From Candidatus Zhuqueibacterota bacterium (lineage in GTDB: Bacteria > Zhuqueibacterota > QNDG01 > JABMRT01): a stretch of 64,000 bases of DNA. Each line of letters opens with the position of its first letter. Position 1 is the first letter of the stretch. Under the pieces are notes generated by a model, which saw nothing but the letters and a program-made list of their open reading frames with translations, searched no databases and had not been told where the DNA came from. The stretch lies in contig JABMRT010000038.1 in NCBI GenBank assembly GCA_013202295.1, positions 62,001-126,000 on the forward strand. Direction: 5' to 3'. This document shows, one piece after another, positions 19,512-28,437 of this stretch. The translations under genes were made by a program, and so were the position numbers.

Positions 19512-20366
19512 TCAGGTTCCTATAATGAGTAATATCATGGCGCCAATCATGTAGAGTGACGCGAATTTGAACAGTCCAAAGTTAATTCTTTCCGAGGGTT
19601 GAATCAAGCTTAAAAGTGCCAGAGCAAAGATGCCGATGGAAAGGCCGGCCAGAATCCATAATAAACCACCGGAGAGTCCGAGTGCAAAAGATCCAATACC
19701 GATGGCGATTGCTGCTCCAAAACTTGACAGGGCAATGGTCCATCTTGTAGCTTGAAATCCATATCTGGATGGAAAGGTGGGGATACCGGCGCGTTTGTAG
19801 TCTTCTAAATATTTCATATTAAATGTCATGATATGGGTGGGTATCCATAGCAGGATTGAAATGGCTAAAAGAATCCCAATTTTATCGATCTGTCCAATTG
19901 CCAAAGCACGGCCTGCTAAAATGGGCATACCGCCGGAGATGCCACCCCAAACAATAGACCAGGGCGTGCGGCGCTTGAGCCACATGGTGTAGACAACCAC
20001 ATCCGTAAAGAGTCCGAAGAAAATGATCATTGCATACAACGGTGAGAGGGCGAGCGCCCAGCTAAACCCAATGCATGACATGACAATCCCCGCGGCGAAT
20101 ACTTCAAATGTCTCCAGTTTTCCGGAGGGAAGCGGGCGTTTGACAGTCCTTTGCATTCTTGCATCTATGTCGCGGTCATAGACCATATTGAGTATGGTGG
20201 AGCCGCTAATAATCATGAACAGGCTGCCAAAGAGTCCGGCAAGAATATCAGCGGAAACCTCTGATCCCCGGGCGCTGATGAAGCCAGTAATGCCAGTGAG
20301 GATCAGCAGGGCTGTTTGAAGGATCTTGATCAGGGGCAAGTATTGTTTAGCTTCTCGTAAGAGCAT
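19512..20366 (-). CDS. UbiA-family prenyltransferase, heme-O-synthase-like (true start MLLREAK; upstream ORF extension lies in a repeat)
   Basis: NMVYDRDIDARMQRTVKRPLPSGKLETFEVFAAGIVMSCIGFSWALAL...VVYTMWLKRRTPWSIVWGGISGGMPILAGRA. Confidence 0.85.
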   Translation of the reverse strand: MLLREAKQYLPLIKILQTALLILTGITGFISARGSEVSADILAGLFGSLFMIISGSTILNMVYDRDIDARMQRTVKRPLPSGKLETFEVFAAGIVMSCIGFSWALALSPLYAMIIFFGLFTDVVVYTMWLKRRTPWSIVWGGISGGMPILAGRALAIGQIDKIGILLAISILLWIPTHIMTFNMKYLEDYKRAGIPTFPSRYGFQATRWTIALSSFGAAIAIGIGSFALGLSGGLLWILAGLSIGIFALALLSLIQPSERINFGLFKFASLYMIGAMILLIIGT

Positions 20367-20394
20367 GATTTGTTTAACCCCCTCTGTATCTCCC

Positions 20395-20436
20395 CCCCTC
20401 GGCAAGCTCAGGACAGGCTCTTGTCAGGGGGAAATT
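20395..20436 (-). repeat. REP-like palindromic repeat, family B
   Basis: Minus strand GACAAGAGCCTGTCCTGAGCTTGCCGAGGGGGG, close to the widespread AGCCTGTCCTGAGCTTGTCGAAGG element. Confidence 0.7.
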
Positions 20437-20479: not shown

Positions 20480-21415
20480 CTAATGATGCCCTTTCAGCAT
20501 CTCGGAATTTTCTCCTCGTGCGCAGCGGAACCCAATATTGATGGCGTAAAAATCCGGTCCCGCACTATTACGGGCCCAGACGCGAAGATTGTATTCATAA
20601 TTGGCGAAACTTCCTCCGCGCGCGTATCGATAATGCTGATCGGAGTAGTCGTCACCGCACCATTGCCAGACATTGCCGGCCATATCGAATAATCCATGCG
20701 GGCTGCGATTGTCCTTTGTCTCGTATCCACTGATCGTCTGACCATTATAAAATCCGACTGGAGTGGTGCGTGCACCGGGATTCAGCACCTTGTGGAACAG
20801 ATCGTGGCTCGAGTAATAATTGGTGTGGTTCCGCGAGATTTCATTGCCCCACGGATAGGCGCGATTGTCCTCTGAGCCGCGTGCTGCTTTTTCCCATTCC
20901 AACTCTGTTGGAAGCCGTAAGCCATTATAATCGGCATAGGCCTTGGCACCGAACCAGGTGACCATGACCACCGGATGATTTTCAAATCCAGATACGACAC
21001 GAAACGTATCCGCATCGAATTTGGTTCGCAATCCCGGTTCATTGAGCAACAAGTGCACCTTATCGCCAGATCCAATTTCGAATTCATGGTGATGGCCTTG
21101 AAACGGATCGCCGGGATAAAAACCCATCACACTGTCGGCCACGATTTTGATGGTGGCATCGACCAACGCACTGTTCAGGTACTCGACGTATTGTGCATTG
21201 GTGACGAGTGTGGCCATGATTTCATAATCGTAGGGGATGTCGATTTCATGATCGTGCAATCCGGCCATGAATTCACCCGCAGGGATTGTGATCCACGAAT
21301 CGGGATCGACACCGGTGTCAATATACGGAATCGAATTGAGAGAATCCACTGGCTCATTAACACATCCGGAAGTCAGGATTAAAATTCCAATCAGAAGGAT
21401 TAGAAAAGTCTTCAT
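20480..21415 (-). CDS. Formylglycine-generating-enzyme-like (SUMF1/FGE-sulfatase fold) lipoprotein
   Basis: Lipobox LILTSGC; WITIPAGEFMAGLHD...LPTELEWEKAARGSEDNRAYPWGNE...GLFDMAGNVWQWCGDDY...RYARGGSFANYEYNLRVWARN...IGFRCAR; ATGA overlap with the upstream gene. Confidence 0.9.
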   Translation of the reverse strand: MKTFLILLIGILILTSGCVNEPVDSLNSIPYIDTGVDPDSWITIPAGEFMAGLHDHEIDIPYDYEIMATLVTNAQYVEYLNSALVDATIKIVADSVMGFYPGDPFQGHHHEFEIGSGDKVHLLLNEPGLRTKFDADTFRVVSGFENHPVVMVTWFGAKAYADYNGLRLPTELEWEKAARGSEDNRAYPWGNEISRNHTNYYSSHDLFHKVLNPGARTTPVGFYNGQTISGYETKDNRSPHGLFDMAGNVWQWCGDDYSDQHYRYARGGSFANYEYNLRVWARNSAGPDFYAINIGFRCARGENSEMLKGHH

Positions 21416-22905
21416 TTCGAATCCTCCTTTTGAAGTGCTGTGCGCTTCACATCCAGTTCCGGATTGGAAAGCTGTCTCTTCCATAATCCTTCGCCTTTAA
21501 ACAGATCAAATAGGCGCCAAAGCAGAAGCACACACATGGCAACCAGAACCGCTGCCAGTCCAATGTCCGCGAAAATCATGGACCAGTCCACCAGTCCTTG
21601 CTGGGCGTATTGCGCGAGCATCAGCCGCTTCATCGAAAAGATAGTGACAGAAGCGAATGCGAGATCCGAGAAAATAATCACGGACCAGCCGAACCATTTG
21701 CGCTTCTTGCCGCTTAATCCGCTAATATCCGCGAAATAGAGAATGATGATTGTCGCAATGATTGCTGAGAGGATGTGCCAGTGCCCGGTCAGAGTAATGC
21801 GCTCCTCACGCGCGGGCCATTGGCGAAAGATCTCATCCAATTTCACAGCCATGAAAATGCCGACTCCGCTGACTGTAAAGTTCATGAAGACCATCTGCCA
21901 CAGCGGTCCGAACTTGAGTGGATCATGAAGCAGCGCACGGAGGCCTTGGCCGAATCCCGGTTTGACGAATTGCCGGTTGTCATGGATGAGTTTGCGCCAT
22001 CCAAATATCACGAGGAAGAGCGCAGATAGCATGACCAGTACCGACCCGCAATAAATGATGGTATGTGCGATGGGCTCAAATGGCACAACGGCCCAGACAC
22101 CGAGTGTGATGACAATCGTGCCGACAATCATGAGCGGCATGGAAATTTTATGAAAGATACCCTTGAAATCCAGCCAGCGGCCGATGATCAGTGTGATGGC
22201 AACGGCAATGAGCGTGAGCATAATGTGCAGATGGCCGATGATTGCGAGCTGCAGCGCGTTCTTGTGCGGCTCGCGAATGATGTCCTCAGCAAGAAACGTT
22301 TCATGCCCGTTGCCCCAATACGATCCGGTAATTGCGCCGAACATAGCCGATCCAAGTGTGGCCACGGCCATGACAAAAAACGCGACACGTTCGAGATCCA
22401 CACCTTTTTTTGTGTGGGCATACTCGTTATCCTTCACATGATATTGCTTTTGCCAGGGCCAGAGCGCCCAGGCAAGATGGCATCCAGAAAAGAACATCAG
22501 GGATAATCCGAACAGGAAGATGCCGTGAAAAATGAAATTATGCCCGAAGTAAGCGAAGCTCAATCCAAAAAATAGGGTCAGGATATACCCGAACGTGACT
22601 GTGCCGTTGATCATGGCCTGCCGATGTTTTCGCATGGGCACGATGGAGGTCATGAAGTAAACCTCGATGGCGATAATGGCCATAGCGATGACGTGGTAAA
22701 GCATGATGATACGGCCTTCACGCTCTTGCGGCAGGAGCTGCATGCCGGTGATTTTCAAGGTGATGTCGCGCACCCCCCATTCGACCATCGGGCCGGAGAG
22801 TGTGCCCCAGATCGCGGTCACGAGCGAGATGAGTGCGACCGCGACAAGCACCAGGCCTTTGGTGGATTGGAATAAATACAAAAATCGATTTTTAATAAAG
22901 TCCAT
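21412..22905 (-). CDS. 12-TM membrane protein resembling a divergent heme-copper oxidase / NO reductase subunit I
   Basis: About 12 hydrophobic segments by eye; TM2-like MLYHVIAMAIIA, TM6-like LAIIGHLHIMLTL, TM10-like TGHWHILSAIIATI (H-x-H); next to a heme-O-synthase-like gene in a nitrite/NO region. Confidence 0.6.
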   Translation of the reverse strand: MDFIKNRFLYLFQSTKGLVLVAVALISLVTAIWGTLSGPMVEWGVRDITLKITGMQLLPQEREGRIIMLYHVIAMAIIAIEVYFMTSIVPMRKHRQAMINGTVTFGYILTLFFGLSFAYFGHNFIFHGIFLFGLSLMFFSGCHLAWALWPWQKQYHVKDNEYAHTKKGVDLERVAFFVMAVATLGSAMFGAITGSYWGNGHETFLAEDIIREPHKNALQLAIIGHLHIMLTLIAVAITLIIGRWLDFKGIFHKISMPLMIVGTIVITLGVWAVVPFEPIAHTIIYCGSVLVMLSALFLVIFGWRKLIHDNRQFVKPGFGQGLRALLHDPLKFGPLWQMVFMNFTVSGVGIFMAVKLDEIFRQWPAREERITLTGHWHILSAIIATIIILYFADISGLSGKKRKWFGWSVIIFSDLAFASVTIFSMKRLMLAQYAQQGLVDWSMIFADIGLAAVLVAMCVLLLWRLFDLFKGEGLWKRQLSNPELDVKRTALQKEDSK

Positions 22906-22993: not shown

Positions 22994-23629
22994 CTATCCC
23001 TTTTTAGCTGCGACAATTTTTTTCACAAATCCGAATGTGTATGCCAGTGTCATCAGTAAAAGCAGCGGAGCAAGAATGGTCATAATCAATTCGGCAGACA
23101 GGATCGGATTGCCCGATTTCAGGAAAGCAAGCGATGTGCCGCCAATGCCAATAAGCACACCACCAATTGAGACACCGATAAAACCACCGGGTACTTTACC
23201 CGCTTTGGTCGCAAAATAGGGGATGAGGACAATGGTGAATCCTGCAATCGAATGGAAAAATGCGAGCGTAAAAATTTGTAATCCTCGCGGTGCTCCAGCG
23301 AAACGTGTGACTAAAATAGCCAGAAATCCCACAATCGCGAAAATCAGGTAGCCTTTTGCCTTGTCCTTGTGAAATTCATGAACCAGACCGGTGGCGATGC
23401 CGAGGGGCAGTAATGTGGTGACAACAATAACTTCGGGATTGGGCAGGATGTCCCAGCCCTTCCAGATCAGGAGCAGTCCTGAAACGAGGAGAACGATAAA
23501 TGATGCCAGATAATAGGTGTTGTGTACAGCAGGACTGCCGAGGCGTTTGTTGTCCTGAAAAAGACGGACAATGAGATAGATGGCCGTGAGTCCGGTGGCT
23601 AACAAAACGAGCTGATCAAATGTGTTCAT
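22994..23629 (-). CDS. Polytopic membrane protein of unknown function, probably functionally linked to the 21412..22905 product
   Basis: MNTFDQLVLLATGLTAIYLIVRLF...; about 7 hydrophobic segments; same strand and cluster. Confidence 0.65.
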   Translation of the reverse strand: MNTFDQLVLLATGLTAIYLIVRLFQDNKRLGSPAVHNTYYLASFIVLLVSGLLLIWKGWDILPNPEVIVVTTLLPLGIATGLVHEFHKDKAKGYLIFAIVGFLAILVTRFAGAPRGLQIFTLAFFHSIAGFTIVLIPYFATKAGKVPGGFIGVSIGGVLIGIGGTSLAFLKSGNPILSAELIMTILAPLLLLMTLAYTFGFVKKIVAAKKG

Positions 23630-23711: not shown

Positions 23712-24089
23712 TTATGGGTTTGCGGTAAGGGGTTCCTTCCCGCGACCTACTACGGATGCTTTATCTGTCCGCTGAAACTTGTCTAAAAGATGCAGAGTTG
23801 CGAAGATCGGATGATGCCACAGCATTCGAGGTCCGGCGAAGCGCATCACCTTACGAACACGTTCCCGTAGTTCCGGTTTGTAACAATGGATCGGACAATT
23901 GACACAAGTGGGTTTGTCAGCGCCGTATGGGCAGGAATTCAATCTCTTTTCAGCATACTCCAACAAAGTTGTACAGTCTCCGCAAAGTCCGAATTTTATT
24001 TGATGATGATGACGGCAATAGAGGCCGATCATATGACCGATGGTCCGATGCTCACGATTTAATCGTTTATGTGTGAATAAATTATTCAT
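23712..24089 (-). CDS. YgbA / nitrous-oxide-stimulated promoter family protein
   Basis: REHRTIGHMIGLYCRHHHQIKFGLCGDCTTLLEYAEKRLNSCPYGADKPTCVNCPIHCYKPELRERVRKVMRFAGPRMLWHHPIFATLHLLD, matching the recalled E. coli YgbA pattern. Confidence 0.92.
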   Translation of the reverse strand: MNNLFTHKRLNREHRTIGHMIGLYCRHHHQIKFGLCGDCTTLLEYAEKRLNSCPYGADKPTCVNCPIHCYKPELRERVRKVMRFAGPRMLWHHPIFATLHLLDKFQRTDKASVVGRGKEPLTANP

Positions 24090-24090
24090 T

Positions 24091-24492
24091 TTATTCTTCA
24101 ATAAGTGCCGCAATAGTTTTATTCTCAAACATGTTGCTGACTTGAGATCTGATTTCCCCCCATTGGTCATGAATCGCGCAGGGATCCTCGTCTCCACATT
24201 TGGGTAATCCGATTAAACATTTTTGACAAAATCCAAGTCCATCGATGGCATCCACAATTTCAATGAGTTTAATCTGGTCCGGATCTCTGGAAAGACGGAC
24301 ACCGCCTTTGGGTCCTTTATAAGAGGTAAGCAACCCTTTCTTTGTCAGTGTCTGGACGATCTTCCCCAGGAAATGATACGAGATCGAATTGATTTCAGCA
24401 ATTTCCTTAACCGGGATATAGGGCCGCTCGTGGTGTTTGGCTAAATACAGAATAGCTTGGATGCCCAGTTCGCATGCGCGTGAGAGAAACAT
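24091..24492 (-). CDS. Rrf2-family transcriptional regulator (NsrR/IscR type) with a Cys cluster
   Basis: MFLSRACELGIQAILYLAKH...ISYHFLGKIVQTLTKKGLLTSYKGPKGGVRLSRDPDQIKLIEIVDAIDG...CQKCLIGLPKCGDEDPC. Confidence 0.93.
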   Translation of the reverse strand: MFLSRACELGIQAILYLAKHHERPYIPVKEIAEINSISYHFLGKIVQTLTKKGLLTSYKGPKGGVRLSRDPDQIKLIEIVDAIDGLGFCQKCLIGLPKCGDEDPCAIHDQWGEIRSQVSNMFENKTIAALIEE

Positions 24493-24986: not shown

Positions 24987-25838
24987 TTACACCCAATCCT
25001 CCGAGAGGATTTCACCTTTGATTCCAACCACGACTTTCTTGATCGGGATTTTGCGACTTGCCTGTTCAGCAGCCTGCTTAGCCATGTGGATGAGTCCGCC
25101 GCAGCATGGCACCTGCATGATCAGCACGGTGAGTGTGTTAATTTTGGCATCATCGATCATGGCGATCAGTTTGGCGAGATAGATATCATGACCTTCATCC
25201 AATTTAGGACAGGCGATGGCAAGCGCTTTTTCTTTGAGAAAGCGCTGATGGAAATCTCCGAGCGCGTACGCTGTGCAATCTGCAGCAAGGAGCACATCCG
25301 CGCCTTCGAAATAGGGCGCACGTGGCGAGACCAGATGCAGCTGCACCGGCCAATGGGTGAGTTGGGATGACACATCGCCCTCGTTGGATTGTATCGGTGT
25401 TTCGTTGTTGAAATTCATCGGTTTACTGCCGGGGCATACGCCCACTGCGTGTCCGTGTTGCACGGGTTTGTCCTCCTCATTAATGCCTTGTGGCACTTCC
25501 AGATTTTTTTCCTTCAATACATCCACGGCAATTTTCAGAAATGCGGTTTCGCCGTGGTCTTTCAAATGGGCCAAATGGGCTTTAATTGTATTGGGTCCGG
25601 CTTTGATAATGTTTTCCATCACAGTGCGCTCATCATAGGGCTCGGCTTCCCGTTTTTCGATTTCGATGGCGCCTTCGGGACATTCACCGATGCAGGCACC
25701 CAGTCCATCACAGAATAGATCGCTAATCAAACGTGCCTTTCCGTCAATGATTTGAAGTGCACCCTCAGGGCATCCGGGCACACAAAGTCCACAGCCGTTA
25801 CATTTATCTTCGTCAATTGTAATGATTTCACGTTCCAT
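24987..25838 (-). CDS. Dicluster 4Fe-4S ferredoxin-type protein (family commonly found with cupin and hcp genes)
   Basis: DEDKCNGCGLCVPGCPEGAL...DLFCDGLGACIGECPEGAIEIEKREAEPYDERTVMENI. Confidence 0.9.
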   Translation of the reverse strand: MEREIITIDEDKCNGCGLCVPGCPEGALQIIDGKARLISDLFCDGLGACIGECPEGAIEIEKREAEPYDERTVMENIIKAGPNTIKAHLAHLKDHGETAFLKIAVDVLKEKNLEVPQGINEEDKPVQHGHAVGVCPGSKPMNFNNETPIQSNEGDVSSQLTHWPVQLHLVSPRAPYFEGADVLLAADCTAYALGDFHQRFLKEKALAIACPKLDEGHDIYLAKLIAMIDDAKINTLTVLIMQVPCCGGLIHMAKQAAEQASRKIPIKKVVVGIKGEILSEDWV

Positions 25839-25927: not shown

Positions 25928-26587
25928 GTGTATTTTATGAATATGAGCGATCCAACCCTGATTTTAATGGAATCCGACCTGTTCAAGTCTCTTGATCCTA
26001 CACACCGCAGGCAAGTGGCAGAGATTTGTCTGGATCATCCTCTGAAAAAACGTGAGATCCTTTTTCATGAAGGGGATAAAGGACGAGCGATTTATTTGTG
26101 CGCGCGGGGATCCATCCAACTTTACAAAACCTCCCCTGATGGACAGGAAGTGGTGATCAAGGTCATTCAACCGGGTGAGTTGTTTGCGGAGGTCATCCTG
26201 TTCGAAAAGGATCGCTATCCGGTTTCGGCCATGGCTTTGGAAGCGGGTCTGGTTTATATGTTGCCTACGGTTCAGTTTGATTGCCTTCTCCAGGATCCGG
26301 ATTTCCGCAACGATTTCATGGCCAATCTGATGGGCAAGTTGCGGTATCTCGCAGAACAAGTCCAATACCTAACAGCATTTGATGTTGAGGCACGGCTGTT
26401 CCGTTTTCTGAAGGAGCAATCTGGCGGCATGCAAACCTTCCAGTGCAATCTCTCCAAAAAGGATGTGGCTGCTGCGATTGGGGCCACACCTGAGACTTTG
26501 TCGCGGCTTTTGCTCCGATTAAAGAAGGAGGAGAAACTGGTCTGGGAGGGAAAGAAGATAACTTGTATCCAGAGTAAATCAATATGA
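25928..26587 (+). CDS. Crp/Fnr-family transcriptional regulator (DNR/HcpR-like, no N-terminal FeS cysteines)
   Basis: cNMP-binding fold FHEGDKGRAIYLCARGSIQLYKTSPDGQEVVIKVIQPGELFAE; HTH LSKKDVAAAIGATPETLSRLLLRLKKE with the E..SR recognition helix. Confidence 0.93.
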   Translation: MYFMNMSDPTLILMESDLFKSLDPTHRRQVAEICLDHPLKKREILFHEGDKGRAIYLCARGSIQLYKTSPDGQEVVIKVIQPGELFAEVILFEKDRYPVSAMALEAGLVYMLPTVQFDCLLQDPDFRNDFMANLMGKLRYLAEQVQYLTAFDVEARLFRFLKEQSGGMQTFQCNLSKKDVAAAIGATPETLSRLLLRLKKEEKLVWEGKKITCIQSKSI

Positions 26588-27051
26588 TTCCATTTAAAAA
26601 ATATCAAAAGTGGTTGATTCTGCTTTCCGTAATGATTTGCGGCGTTCTCCTGGGACTAGGAGGATTCACATTCTTTTACGCGCAGGGTGCATCCTATCTG
26701 GTGGATGATCCTGAGGCGTGCATGAATTGTCATGTGATGCGCGATCAATATGACGGGTGGAACCGGTCGAGCCATCACGAGGTGGCCACATGTAATAGCT
26801 GTCATACACCACATGATCTGTTCGGCAAGTACGCCACCAAGGCGCTGAACGGTTGGAATCACAGTGCCGCGTTTACTACGGGTAATTATGATGAAACCAT
26901 CAATATTCATAATTTCAATGCAAAGATTGCACATGACAATTGTCTGCGATGCCATAGAGATGTGGTATCCCGGATGAAAACATATGCCTATCCTGAGAAA
27001 GTAGATTGTATGCATTGTCACGGTAATGTGGGGCATAGTAATCGGTTTTAA
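26584..27051 (+). CDS. nrfH: Cytochrome c nitrite reductase small subunit (tetraheme)
   Basis: N-terminal TM; CMNCH, CNSCH, CLRCH, CMHCH; ATGA overlap with the crp-like gene; followed by nrfA. Confidence 0.94.
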   Translation: MIPFKKYQKWLILLSVMICGVLLGLGGFTFFYAQGASYLVDDPEACMNCHVMRDQYDGWNRSSHHEVATCNSCHTPHDLFGKYATKALNGWNHSAAFTTGNYDETINIHNFNAKIAHDNCLRCHRDVVSRMKTYAYPEKVDCMHCHGNVGHSNRF

Positions 27052-27123
27052 AAATAGTATATTGTATGTGGTAGGTCGTATATCCGAGCAGAATGTAAAT
27101 AGCACACGGTATATAGTATACAG

Positions 27124-28437
27124 GTGGCGGAAATTATGTCGATTAAAGATTGGTTAAAACGGGGTTGGGTATACATCCTCATCTTCTTGGGATCGGTGAT
27201 CGGTACGGTGCTGATTTTGATGCTGCTTTTCAATATCAGAGAAAAGAAGCGGGAAGCGCTTCAATATCCGTTCAAGGTGGTTGAGATTGGTGAGGATGAG
27301 ATTGATCCCGCGGTCTGGGGACAGAATTTTCCTTTTGAATATGATACCTTCGTCCAGACCAAAGTGGATTATGGCAAGACCAAATATGGCGGTTCCACGC
27401 CCTACAGCAAGCTTGAAGCGTATCCTGCGATGAAACGGCTCTGGGCCGGATATTCATTCAGTAAAGATCACAATGAGGAGCGCGGTCATCATTACACATC
27501 TATTGATCAGGCCAATACACTGCGCACTCAGATCGTGGTCCAGCCTGGTGCATGCGTCAATTGTCACGCAGCAGAGATGCCTGCCCTTGTCCGTGAGATG
27601 GGGTGGGAGGAATTCAATGCGACGCCATACAACGATCTGAAATCCAAATTAATGACAGGGTCTTCCTGTGCAGATTGTCATGATCCCAACACAATGGCGT
27701 TGCGGATTACACGCCCCGCGTTCAAAATCGCGATGGAAGAAGCCGGTGTGGATCTGTCCAAAGCGACTCGTCAGGAGATGCGATCTTATGTTTGCGGTCA
27801 ATGTCATGTTGAATATTATTTCAAGGGAAAGAACAAGGTGCTCACCTTCCCGTGGAGCGAAGGCCGTTCCATTGACGCCATCAAGGCCCATTATGAATCC
27901 TACGACTTTGCAGACTGGACCCATGCTGAAACTGGTGCGCCGATGTTAAAAATGCAGCATCCTGAATTTGAACTTTGGGGCACCGGCATACATGCCAAGT
28001 CCGGAGTCTCATGCGCGGATTGTCACATGCCCTATGTCCGGCGCGGCAGTGTGAAGATTTCCGATCACTGGATTCGCAGTCCGCTTCAAAATCCGAACGC
28101 TTCATGTCAAACCTGTCATCATGTGACAGTTGAGGAACTTGAAGACCGTATCCTGACCATTCAGGATCGGACCGCGAAGCTCCTTCGCCAGAGTGAAGAG
28201 GCGATTCTTGACGCGATTGACGCGATTAAGGTTGCACAGTCCAAAGGCATTCCTTCGGATAAACTGGATAAGGCATTGCATCTACATCGCCGATCCCAGA
28301 TGCGCTGGGATTTTGTCTCCTCCGAAAATAGCACCGGATTTCACAGTGGACAGGAGGCGGCACGCATTTTAGCGGAATCTATGGATCTGGCACGTCAGGC
28401 ACAGATTGAGGCGATTAAAACATTGAATCGATCTTAA
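27124..28437 (+). CDS. nrfA: Ammonia-forming cytochrome c nitrite reductase (pentaheme)
   Basis: CVNCH, CADCH, CGQCHVEYYFKGK, GIHAKSGVSCADCHMPYVRRG, CQTCH; WTHAETGAPMLKMQHPEFELW. Confidence 0.95.
   Translation: MAEIMSIKDWLKRGWVYILIFLGSVIGTVLILMLLFNIREKKREALQYPFKVVEIGEDEIDPAVWGQNFPFEYDTFVQTKVDYGKTKYGGSTPYSKLEAYPAMKRLWAGYSFSKDHNEERGHHYTSIDQANTLRTQIVVQPGACVNCHAAEMPALVREMGWEEFNATPYNDLKSKLMTGSSCADCHDPNTMALRITRPAFKIAMEEAGVDLSKATRQEMRSYVCGQCHVEYYFKGKNKVLTFPWSEGRSIDAIKAHYESYDFADWTHAETGAPMLKMQHPEFELWGTGIHAKSGVSCADCHMPYVRRGSVKISDHWIRSPLQNPNASCQTCHHVTVEELEDRILTIQDRTAKLLRQSEEAILDAIDAIKVAQSKGIPSDKLDKALHLHRRSQMRWDFVSSENSTGFHSGQEAARILAESMDLARQAQIEAIKTLNRS

Follow-up and report, generated by a model that had tools for sequence, protein, structure and literature searches.

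What does a membrane protein do that carries the heme-copper oxidase (HCO) histidines in its second, sixth and tenth transmembrane helices (TM2, TM6 and TM10) but not the histidine pair of TM7? The question is raised by a gene in the window, the whole stretch of 64,000 nucleotides analysed here (contig JABMRT010000038.1, positions 62,001 to 126,000, Candidatus Zhuqueibacterota bacterium). In HCOs, the TM2 histidine and one TM10 histidine bind the low-spin heme, the other TM10 histidine serves the reactive heme facing TM6, and the partner metal is canonically held by one TM6 histidine together with the TM7 His-His pair. A sequence-only reading of the locus had proposed a heme-binding HCO relative with an altered or missing binuclear site. 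Judging by predicted structures, the protein represents a new HCO-fold family that may be similar to nitric oxide reductases (NORs) in its work. It is tentatively interpreted as the deep-branching HCO-fold core of a heme-o (and/or heme-b) reductase that detoxifies NO in anaerobes, a proposal that is favoured without being strong enough to be called probable.

Gene organization of the module

The HCO-like open reading frame is real and strongly conserved. It lies on the minus strand, which had not been specified before, and no comparable frame is found on the plus strand of the same interval. Its neighbourhood was compared across the loci of the best 80 of 163 relatives recovered by a genome scan (62–76% identical). 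The order of genes along the minus strand of the window is Rrf2, YgbA, a 211-aa membrane protein, the HCO-like protein, an FGE-domain lipoprotein and CyoE (Table 1).

Table 1. Features of the module and its surroundings in the window (positions are those of the window)
Feature	Position	Strand	Evidence or remark
Heme O synthase (CyoE/CtaB, UbiA superfamily)	19512..20405	minus	TIGR01473, 207.6 bits
FGE-sulfatase-domain (PF03781) lipoprotein	20480..21415	minus	PF03781, E 1.2e-41
HCO-fold subunit I-like protein (P0001; fold predicted)	21412..22905	minus	497 aa, 12 TM
Small polytopic membrane protein	22994..23629	minus	211 aa, one invariant His (H126); in 63/80 loci
YgbA (PF11756, nitrous-oxide-stimulated promoter family), NO-stress gene	23712..24089	minus	
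Rrf2-family (NsrR/IscR-like) regulator, heading the gene cluster	24091..24492	minus	
Ferredoxin-domain protein	24987..25838	minus	44%-identical homologue upstream of the module in L188
Crp/Fnr-family regulator, upstream of nrfHA	25928..26587	plus	
NrfH and NrfA, cytochrome c nitrite reductase (ammonifying)	26584..28437	plus	multi-CxxCH ORFs

The FGE gene likely starts at the ATG at 21415, overlapping the stop codon of the HCO-like gene. Its product has a lipobox-like N-terminus (LTSGC) and is found in 79 of the 80 loci; it is probably a periplasmic partner subunit. FGE/SUMF1-domain proteins of the NirV type also occur beside a nitrogen-oxide gene, whereas the present one is a lipoprotein, and its gene is strictly associated with that of an HCO-fold protein. 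The association with cyoE pointed out in the sequence-only reading holds in most of the loci compared, CyoE being encoded in 76 of the 80. The window's CyoE scores below the TIGR01473 cut-off (210.3 bits) and retains an NMxxDxxxD-type motif; CyoE is also encoded directly 3' of the remote homologues L180–L182. Neither a cytochrome c nor a CuA subunit is present in the operon, and no subunit II or III is present in the module.

Other membrane proteins recur around the module. A polytopic family of 325–339 aa with an invariant TNLD and no Pfam match lies near it in 31 loci (L016:11438-12412 and 30 others), and three more families without a convincing Pfam match are found in 19, 20 and 22 loci (examples are L061:7149-7952, L059:12226-12912 and L027:11918-12352); these three could be additional subunits or take part in assembly. 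A second FGE-domain protein, 30–35% identical to the first, is encoded a few kb away in some Chloroflexota loci (L183:11086-11988, L184:2717-3595). The mechanically called YgbA frame (23712-24197) begins inside the Rrf2 gene, and its true start is likely the ATG at 24089, right after the Rrf2 stop. A plasmid search gave no match.

Conserved histidines

The twelve or so hydrophobic segments counted from the sequence correspond to 12 long TM helices in the AlphaFold model (residues 15-37, 59-88, 93-119, 124-147, 171-198, 217-244, 250-271, 277-309, 329-354, 371-394, 399-426 and 436-469 for TM1 to TM12). The histidines read by eye fall where they had been placed: H71 in TM2 (LYHVIAMA), H225-L-H227 in TM6 (IIGHLHIMLTL) and H375-W-H377 in TM10 (TGHWHILSAI), while H281 opens TM8 in the motif PFEPIAHTIIY. 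A further one, H127 at the start of TM4, had been missed. All seven are 100% conserved in 127 homologues (112 main-family and 15 remote sequences, to ~36% identity), as are Y70, E207, R211 and E368; R62 and R65 are almost fully conserved. TM7 lacks a histidine pair, as first reported; its single histidine, H252 near the start of the helix, is not kept in the remote homologues, and residue-by-residue inspection of the TM7 stretch found the pair in none of the 15. Given seven fully conserved histidines and the absence of the TM7 pair in these 15 sequences, the pattern is not due to chance. Moreover, since the non-canonical set is strictly conserved, the altered site suspected in the sequence-only reading is a stable family trait rather than the mark of a degenerate gene.

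TM6 (IIGHLHIML) and TM10 (LTGHWHILS) form an internal repeat (hhalign E 5.6e-4; 0.0013 in the profile test), as expected if TM2, TM6 and TM10 are pseudo-symmetric. A pseudo-symmetry of the TM4 and TM8 histidines was rejected as not significant (0.17), and the TM6/TM10 relation alone holds.

A histidine set of this kind could also belong to a non-catalytic, multi-heme electron carrier of HCO fold that passes quinol electrons to the FGE lipoprotein or another periplasmic acceptor. Its bis-His hemes would be held by H71/H377, by H375 with one TM6 histidine, and by the other TM6 histidine with H127 or H281. The odd seventh histidine and the missing TM7 ligand pair are in keeping with such a carrier, as is the TM6 HxH, which repeats that of TM10, so that TM6 may likewise face two cofactors. 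Additionally, the family lacks an invariant counterpart of the cross-linked tyrosine of oxidases, since in H281-xxx-Y285 the Tyr is found in 104 of the 112 main-family members and is mostly replaced by Asn in the remote ones. On the other hand, no FGE partner was seen in the loci of the remote homologues though they keep all seven histidines, and heme o is typically found at the reactive sites of HCOs. The carrier is considered unlikely but worth keeping in mind, and the TM6 HxH remains a difficulty for an NO reductase because it could mean that all hemes are low-spin and no reactive site exists.

Fold and relation to known families

The HCO-like protein has no match by curated score in Pfam or NCBIfam, none by sequence among PDB chains, and no PF00115 match by hmmscan; hhalign against canonical HCO sets taken from carrier genomes (cbb3, qNOR and aa3) was not significant either, also when remote homologues were added. 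The HCO relationship suggested by the sequence-only reading was consequently not borne out by the profile check, whereas the structural comparison upheld it through two independent models. The AlphaFold model of the window protein (58 homologues; pLDDT 80.7, pTM 0.86) retrieved from the PDB with Foldseek the Thermus thermophilus ba3 oxidase as best match, followed by aa3, cbb3 and cNOR subunit I, with ranks 1–39 all being HCOs (probability 0.99–1.00, TMq 0.43–0.62, 10–15% identity). The model of the 36%-identical remote relative L177 (51-row alignment; pLDDT 90.2, pTM 0.91) gave HCO subunit I in its first 19 matches, including bo3 and qNOR, with a best E of 4.6e-4. In both cases HCO subunit I is at the top, with a probability of mostly 1.00 and TM-scores of ~0.5–0.62. 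An HCO subunit I fold is therefore well supported by prediction, and any kinship in sequence lies below detection by the profiles built here. The lack of a sequence-level link to HCOs and the modest Foldseek E-values weaken the case for an NO reductase.

Compared with the PF00115 subunits I (B-type ba3, C-type cbb3, A-type aa3/bo3), the family shares the predicted 12-TM COX1 fold, a histidine in TM2 and TM6, the HxH of TM10 and a heme O synthase as helper. The low-spin heme ligand positions are thus occupied by invariant residues (H71 in TM2, H375/H377 in TM10), their ligation being inferred. The family differs by its lack of sequence and profile similarity, by extra invariant histidines in TM4, TM6 and TM8, and by the absence of the CuB/FeB site made of a TM6 His and the TM7 His-His, the TM6 His being present as HxH. 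Furthermore, PF00115 systems have subunits II/III, in place of which the module has the FGE lipoprotein and the small membrane protein. With the NORs (cNOR/qNOR (NorB), eNOR, sNOR and gNOR) it has in common the HCO fold and an NO-linked anaerobic context, but the FeB His set is missing, including the His3 set of cNOR/qNOR, and the operon encodes no NorC, no fused cytochrome or quinol domain and no cupredoxin subunit. As the TM7 His-His test and all sequence-profile tests failed, the protein was assigned neither to PF00115 nor to the NORs.

Two other identities were rejected. NnrS (PF05940) is likewise a polytopic heme protein tied to NO stress, but the HCO-like protein does not match its profile, and NnrS is rare in carrier genomes (over cut-off in only 1 of 30). 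The heme A synthase CtaA/COX15 is excluded by the absence of a PF02628 match and by 12 rather than 8 TM helices. No published description of the family was found in the literature searched, preprints and most subscription papers being outside its scope.

Nitric oxide and nitrite context

The sequence-only reading linked the gene to NO through its heme O synthase and its nitrite/NO neighbours, and conserved synteny and regulatory boxes now strengthen this link. In the window, YgbA lies directly upstream of the module, and NrfHA, recognised from the ORF sequences and not from the family-library scan, is ~3.7 kb from the HCO-like gene. Rrf2 and YgbA adjoin the module in the window and in L006/L135; YgbA is also beside it in L001, with a weaker Rrf2 match. 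In L188, NrfHA is directly downstream of the module, with 57% and 61% identity to the window's proteins and a match of the region to PF02335; two further contigs (G273:C181 and G884:C416) carry NrfA within ~4 kb. Remote loci show other NO-related genes: a flavodiiron protein and a DUF438-hemerythrin-PAS protein adjoin the HCO-like gene in L130, DUF438-hemerythrin and NDH-2 in L176 and L178, and a NOR-like PF00115 protein in L131, L176 and L177. Where the latter is present, a second NOR would be redundant, which counts against NO reduction by the HCO-like protein.

The adjacent PF00115 proteins (L131:9819-11444, L176:1599-3476, L177:7073-8686) keep the TM7 His-His and have Asp in place of the TM6 His ligand (WWGLDMVADG), and that of L177 is preceded by an apparent small cupredoxin-type subunit II. 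Asp is listed as an active-site residue of gNOR (PMC8756737).

Of 70 upstream regions, 11 have a TGTGA-N6-TCACA box immediately before the module (~0 expected); all 11 loci are from Chloroflexota, and in ten of them the box is the sole copy. The sequence is that of the HcpR consensus wTGTGAnnnnnnTCACAw; among the genes in the predicted HcpR regulons are nrfHA, ndh and those for hemerythrin-like proteins (PMC1274295). Other Crp-family proteins have the same box, however, so that the upstream boxes fit these regulators as well, and in the window nothing above chance was found for NsrR-like or HcpR boxes.

Co-occurrence with NrfA, counted in genomes of the class of G321 without control for phylogeny, gave a divided answer. 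Full-length NrfA is enriched with the main family (22/38 genomes vs 57/243 without either form; Fisher p=5e-5) and absent from all 14 remote-form genomes (p=0.04), the latter being a point against an NO reductase. Co-occurrence with PF03063 (Hcp) was uninformative, with 146/298 genomes positive, probably through mixing with CO dehydrogenase.

Taken together, Rrf2/YgbA, NrfHA, flavodiiron protein, DUF438-hemerythrin, the NOR-like neighbour and the HcpR-type boxes point to NO. A count of Pfam families among the outer neighbours was dominated by Crp/Fnr, TetR and Fer4 proteins and gave no strong functional signal, and near most main-family loci only generic Crp/TetR regulators are present, as might be expected of a reductase of some small substrate other than NO. 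Nevertheless, NO-gene associations recur in the main and remote lineages, and this last alternative is held to be very unlikely.

Heme cofactor and other HCOs in carrier genomes

No PF00115 protein was detected in the window's genome (95.65% complete) or in 17 of 49 other carrier genomes, and none of these 18 genomes has a heme A synthase (CtaA). Because MAGs are incomplete, an absence from any single genome calls for caution, but a consistent pattern is less affected. Without PF00115 protein and CtaA, CyoE has no other evident client in these genomes, and heme o is the likely cofactor of the HCO-like protein, this being the simplest reading. The well-studied cNOR and qNOR need heme b only, whereas a heme O synthase in the operon suggests oxidase-like chemistry, a point against an NO reductase.

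An O2-scavenging heme-o quinol oxidase of anaerobes would account for CyoE, since heme o or a is used by the O2-reducing A- and B-type HCOs; ba3 and cbb3 oxidases are the closest folds, and in the main family H281-xxx-Y285 resembles the HxxxY motif of oxidases. Yet the remote lineage does not conserve Y285, the CuB His pair is missing, the module has no subunit II/III, and the informative neighbours are NO/nitrite genes, not oxidative-stress genes. Such an oxidase seems improbable.

The genomes without another HCO also bear on the possibility of an NO-binding accessory, sensor or heme-handling factor, which in a role like that of NnrS would protect or assemble other enzymes without turnover. 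The NO-linked context and the NOR-like gene adjoining in L131, L176 and L177 would suit such a factor, but the family occurs in genomes where no HCO/NOR client was found and has no profile relation to NnrS, which leaves this explanation decidedly doubtful.

Family distribution

The best 80 relatives come from Fidelibacterota, Calditrichota, Ignavibacteriota, Chlorobiota, Bacteroidota, Aminicenantes, Chloroflexota and Desulfuromonadales-type MAGs, and members of the family are mostly from uncultured bacteria. Within the phylum to which the window belongs, 3 of 82 genomes carry the gene; the corresponding counts are 13 of 301 for the phylum of the Chloroflexota carrier G119 and 2 of 297 for that of a Geobacteraceae MAG. 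Carriers are more frequent, with 55 of 298 sampled genomes, in the class that includes G321, taken as Anaerolineae (Chloroflexota) from carriers in common. The distribution is also patchy across Calditrichota, Fidelibacterota (Neomarinimicrobiota), Aminicenantes, Bacteroidota, Ignavibacteriota and Desulfuromonadaceae/Geobacteraceae. Because the tree of the best 80 relatives interleaves phyla (11 label changes vs a minimum of 7) and the gene is patchy, horizontal transfer is likely, though not proven. The remote lineage is 36–37% identical to the window protein. The in-frame TGA of some homologues was taken as a normal stop, since full-length frames end nearby.

Proposed mechanism

For the preferred NO-detoxifying reductase, NO reduction to N2O is the reaction that the context makes most likely, an inference put at a little less than even. 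CyoE would convert heme b into the farnesylated heme o for the HCO-like protein. By analogy with all HCOs, the low-spin heme would be held by H71 and H377, and a second, ligand-binding heme by H375. The partner metal or distal ligand might come from one TM6 histidine (H225 or H227) and H281, which at the start of TM8 is inferred, without distances, to be close to the expected place of the canonical TM7 pair. The other TM6 histidine, inferred to face the opposite way, may hold a further cofactor together with H127. Electrons would be drawn from the quinol pool or NDH-2, although the donor has not been identified; the FGE lipoprotein would cap the periplasmic face, Rrf2 or Crp/Fnr (HcpR-type) regulators would adjust expression to NO or nitrite, and N2O would be the product.

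Concluding remarks

A bolder reading, for which the support is slimmer still, is that the family is an unrecognised outgroup of the whole HCO superfamily, with HxH in both TM6 and TM10, TM6/TM8/TM4 histidines binding a catalytic metal or a third heme, heme o as cofactor and NO reduction in anaerobes without any other HCO. If this is true, binuclear sites can be built in a second way, and the family may preserve a trace of the three-fold state ancestral to the superfamily. The family has been missed by annotation pipelines because the HCO histidine set is treated as diagnostic. If it reduces NO, sediments and the subsurface would contain a source of N2O, or a sink of NO, that has so far gone uncounted, and the heme O synthase of bacteria that lack any oxidase of the HCO superfamily would be explained. 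The family is also relevant to the debate over which arose first, NO reductases or oxygen reductases.
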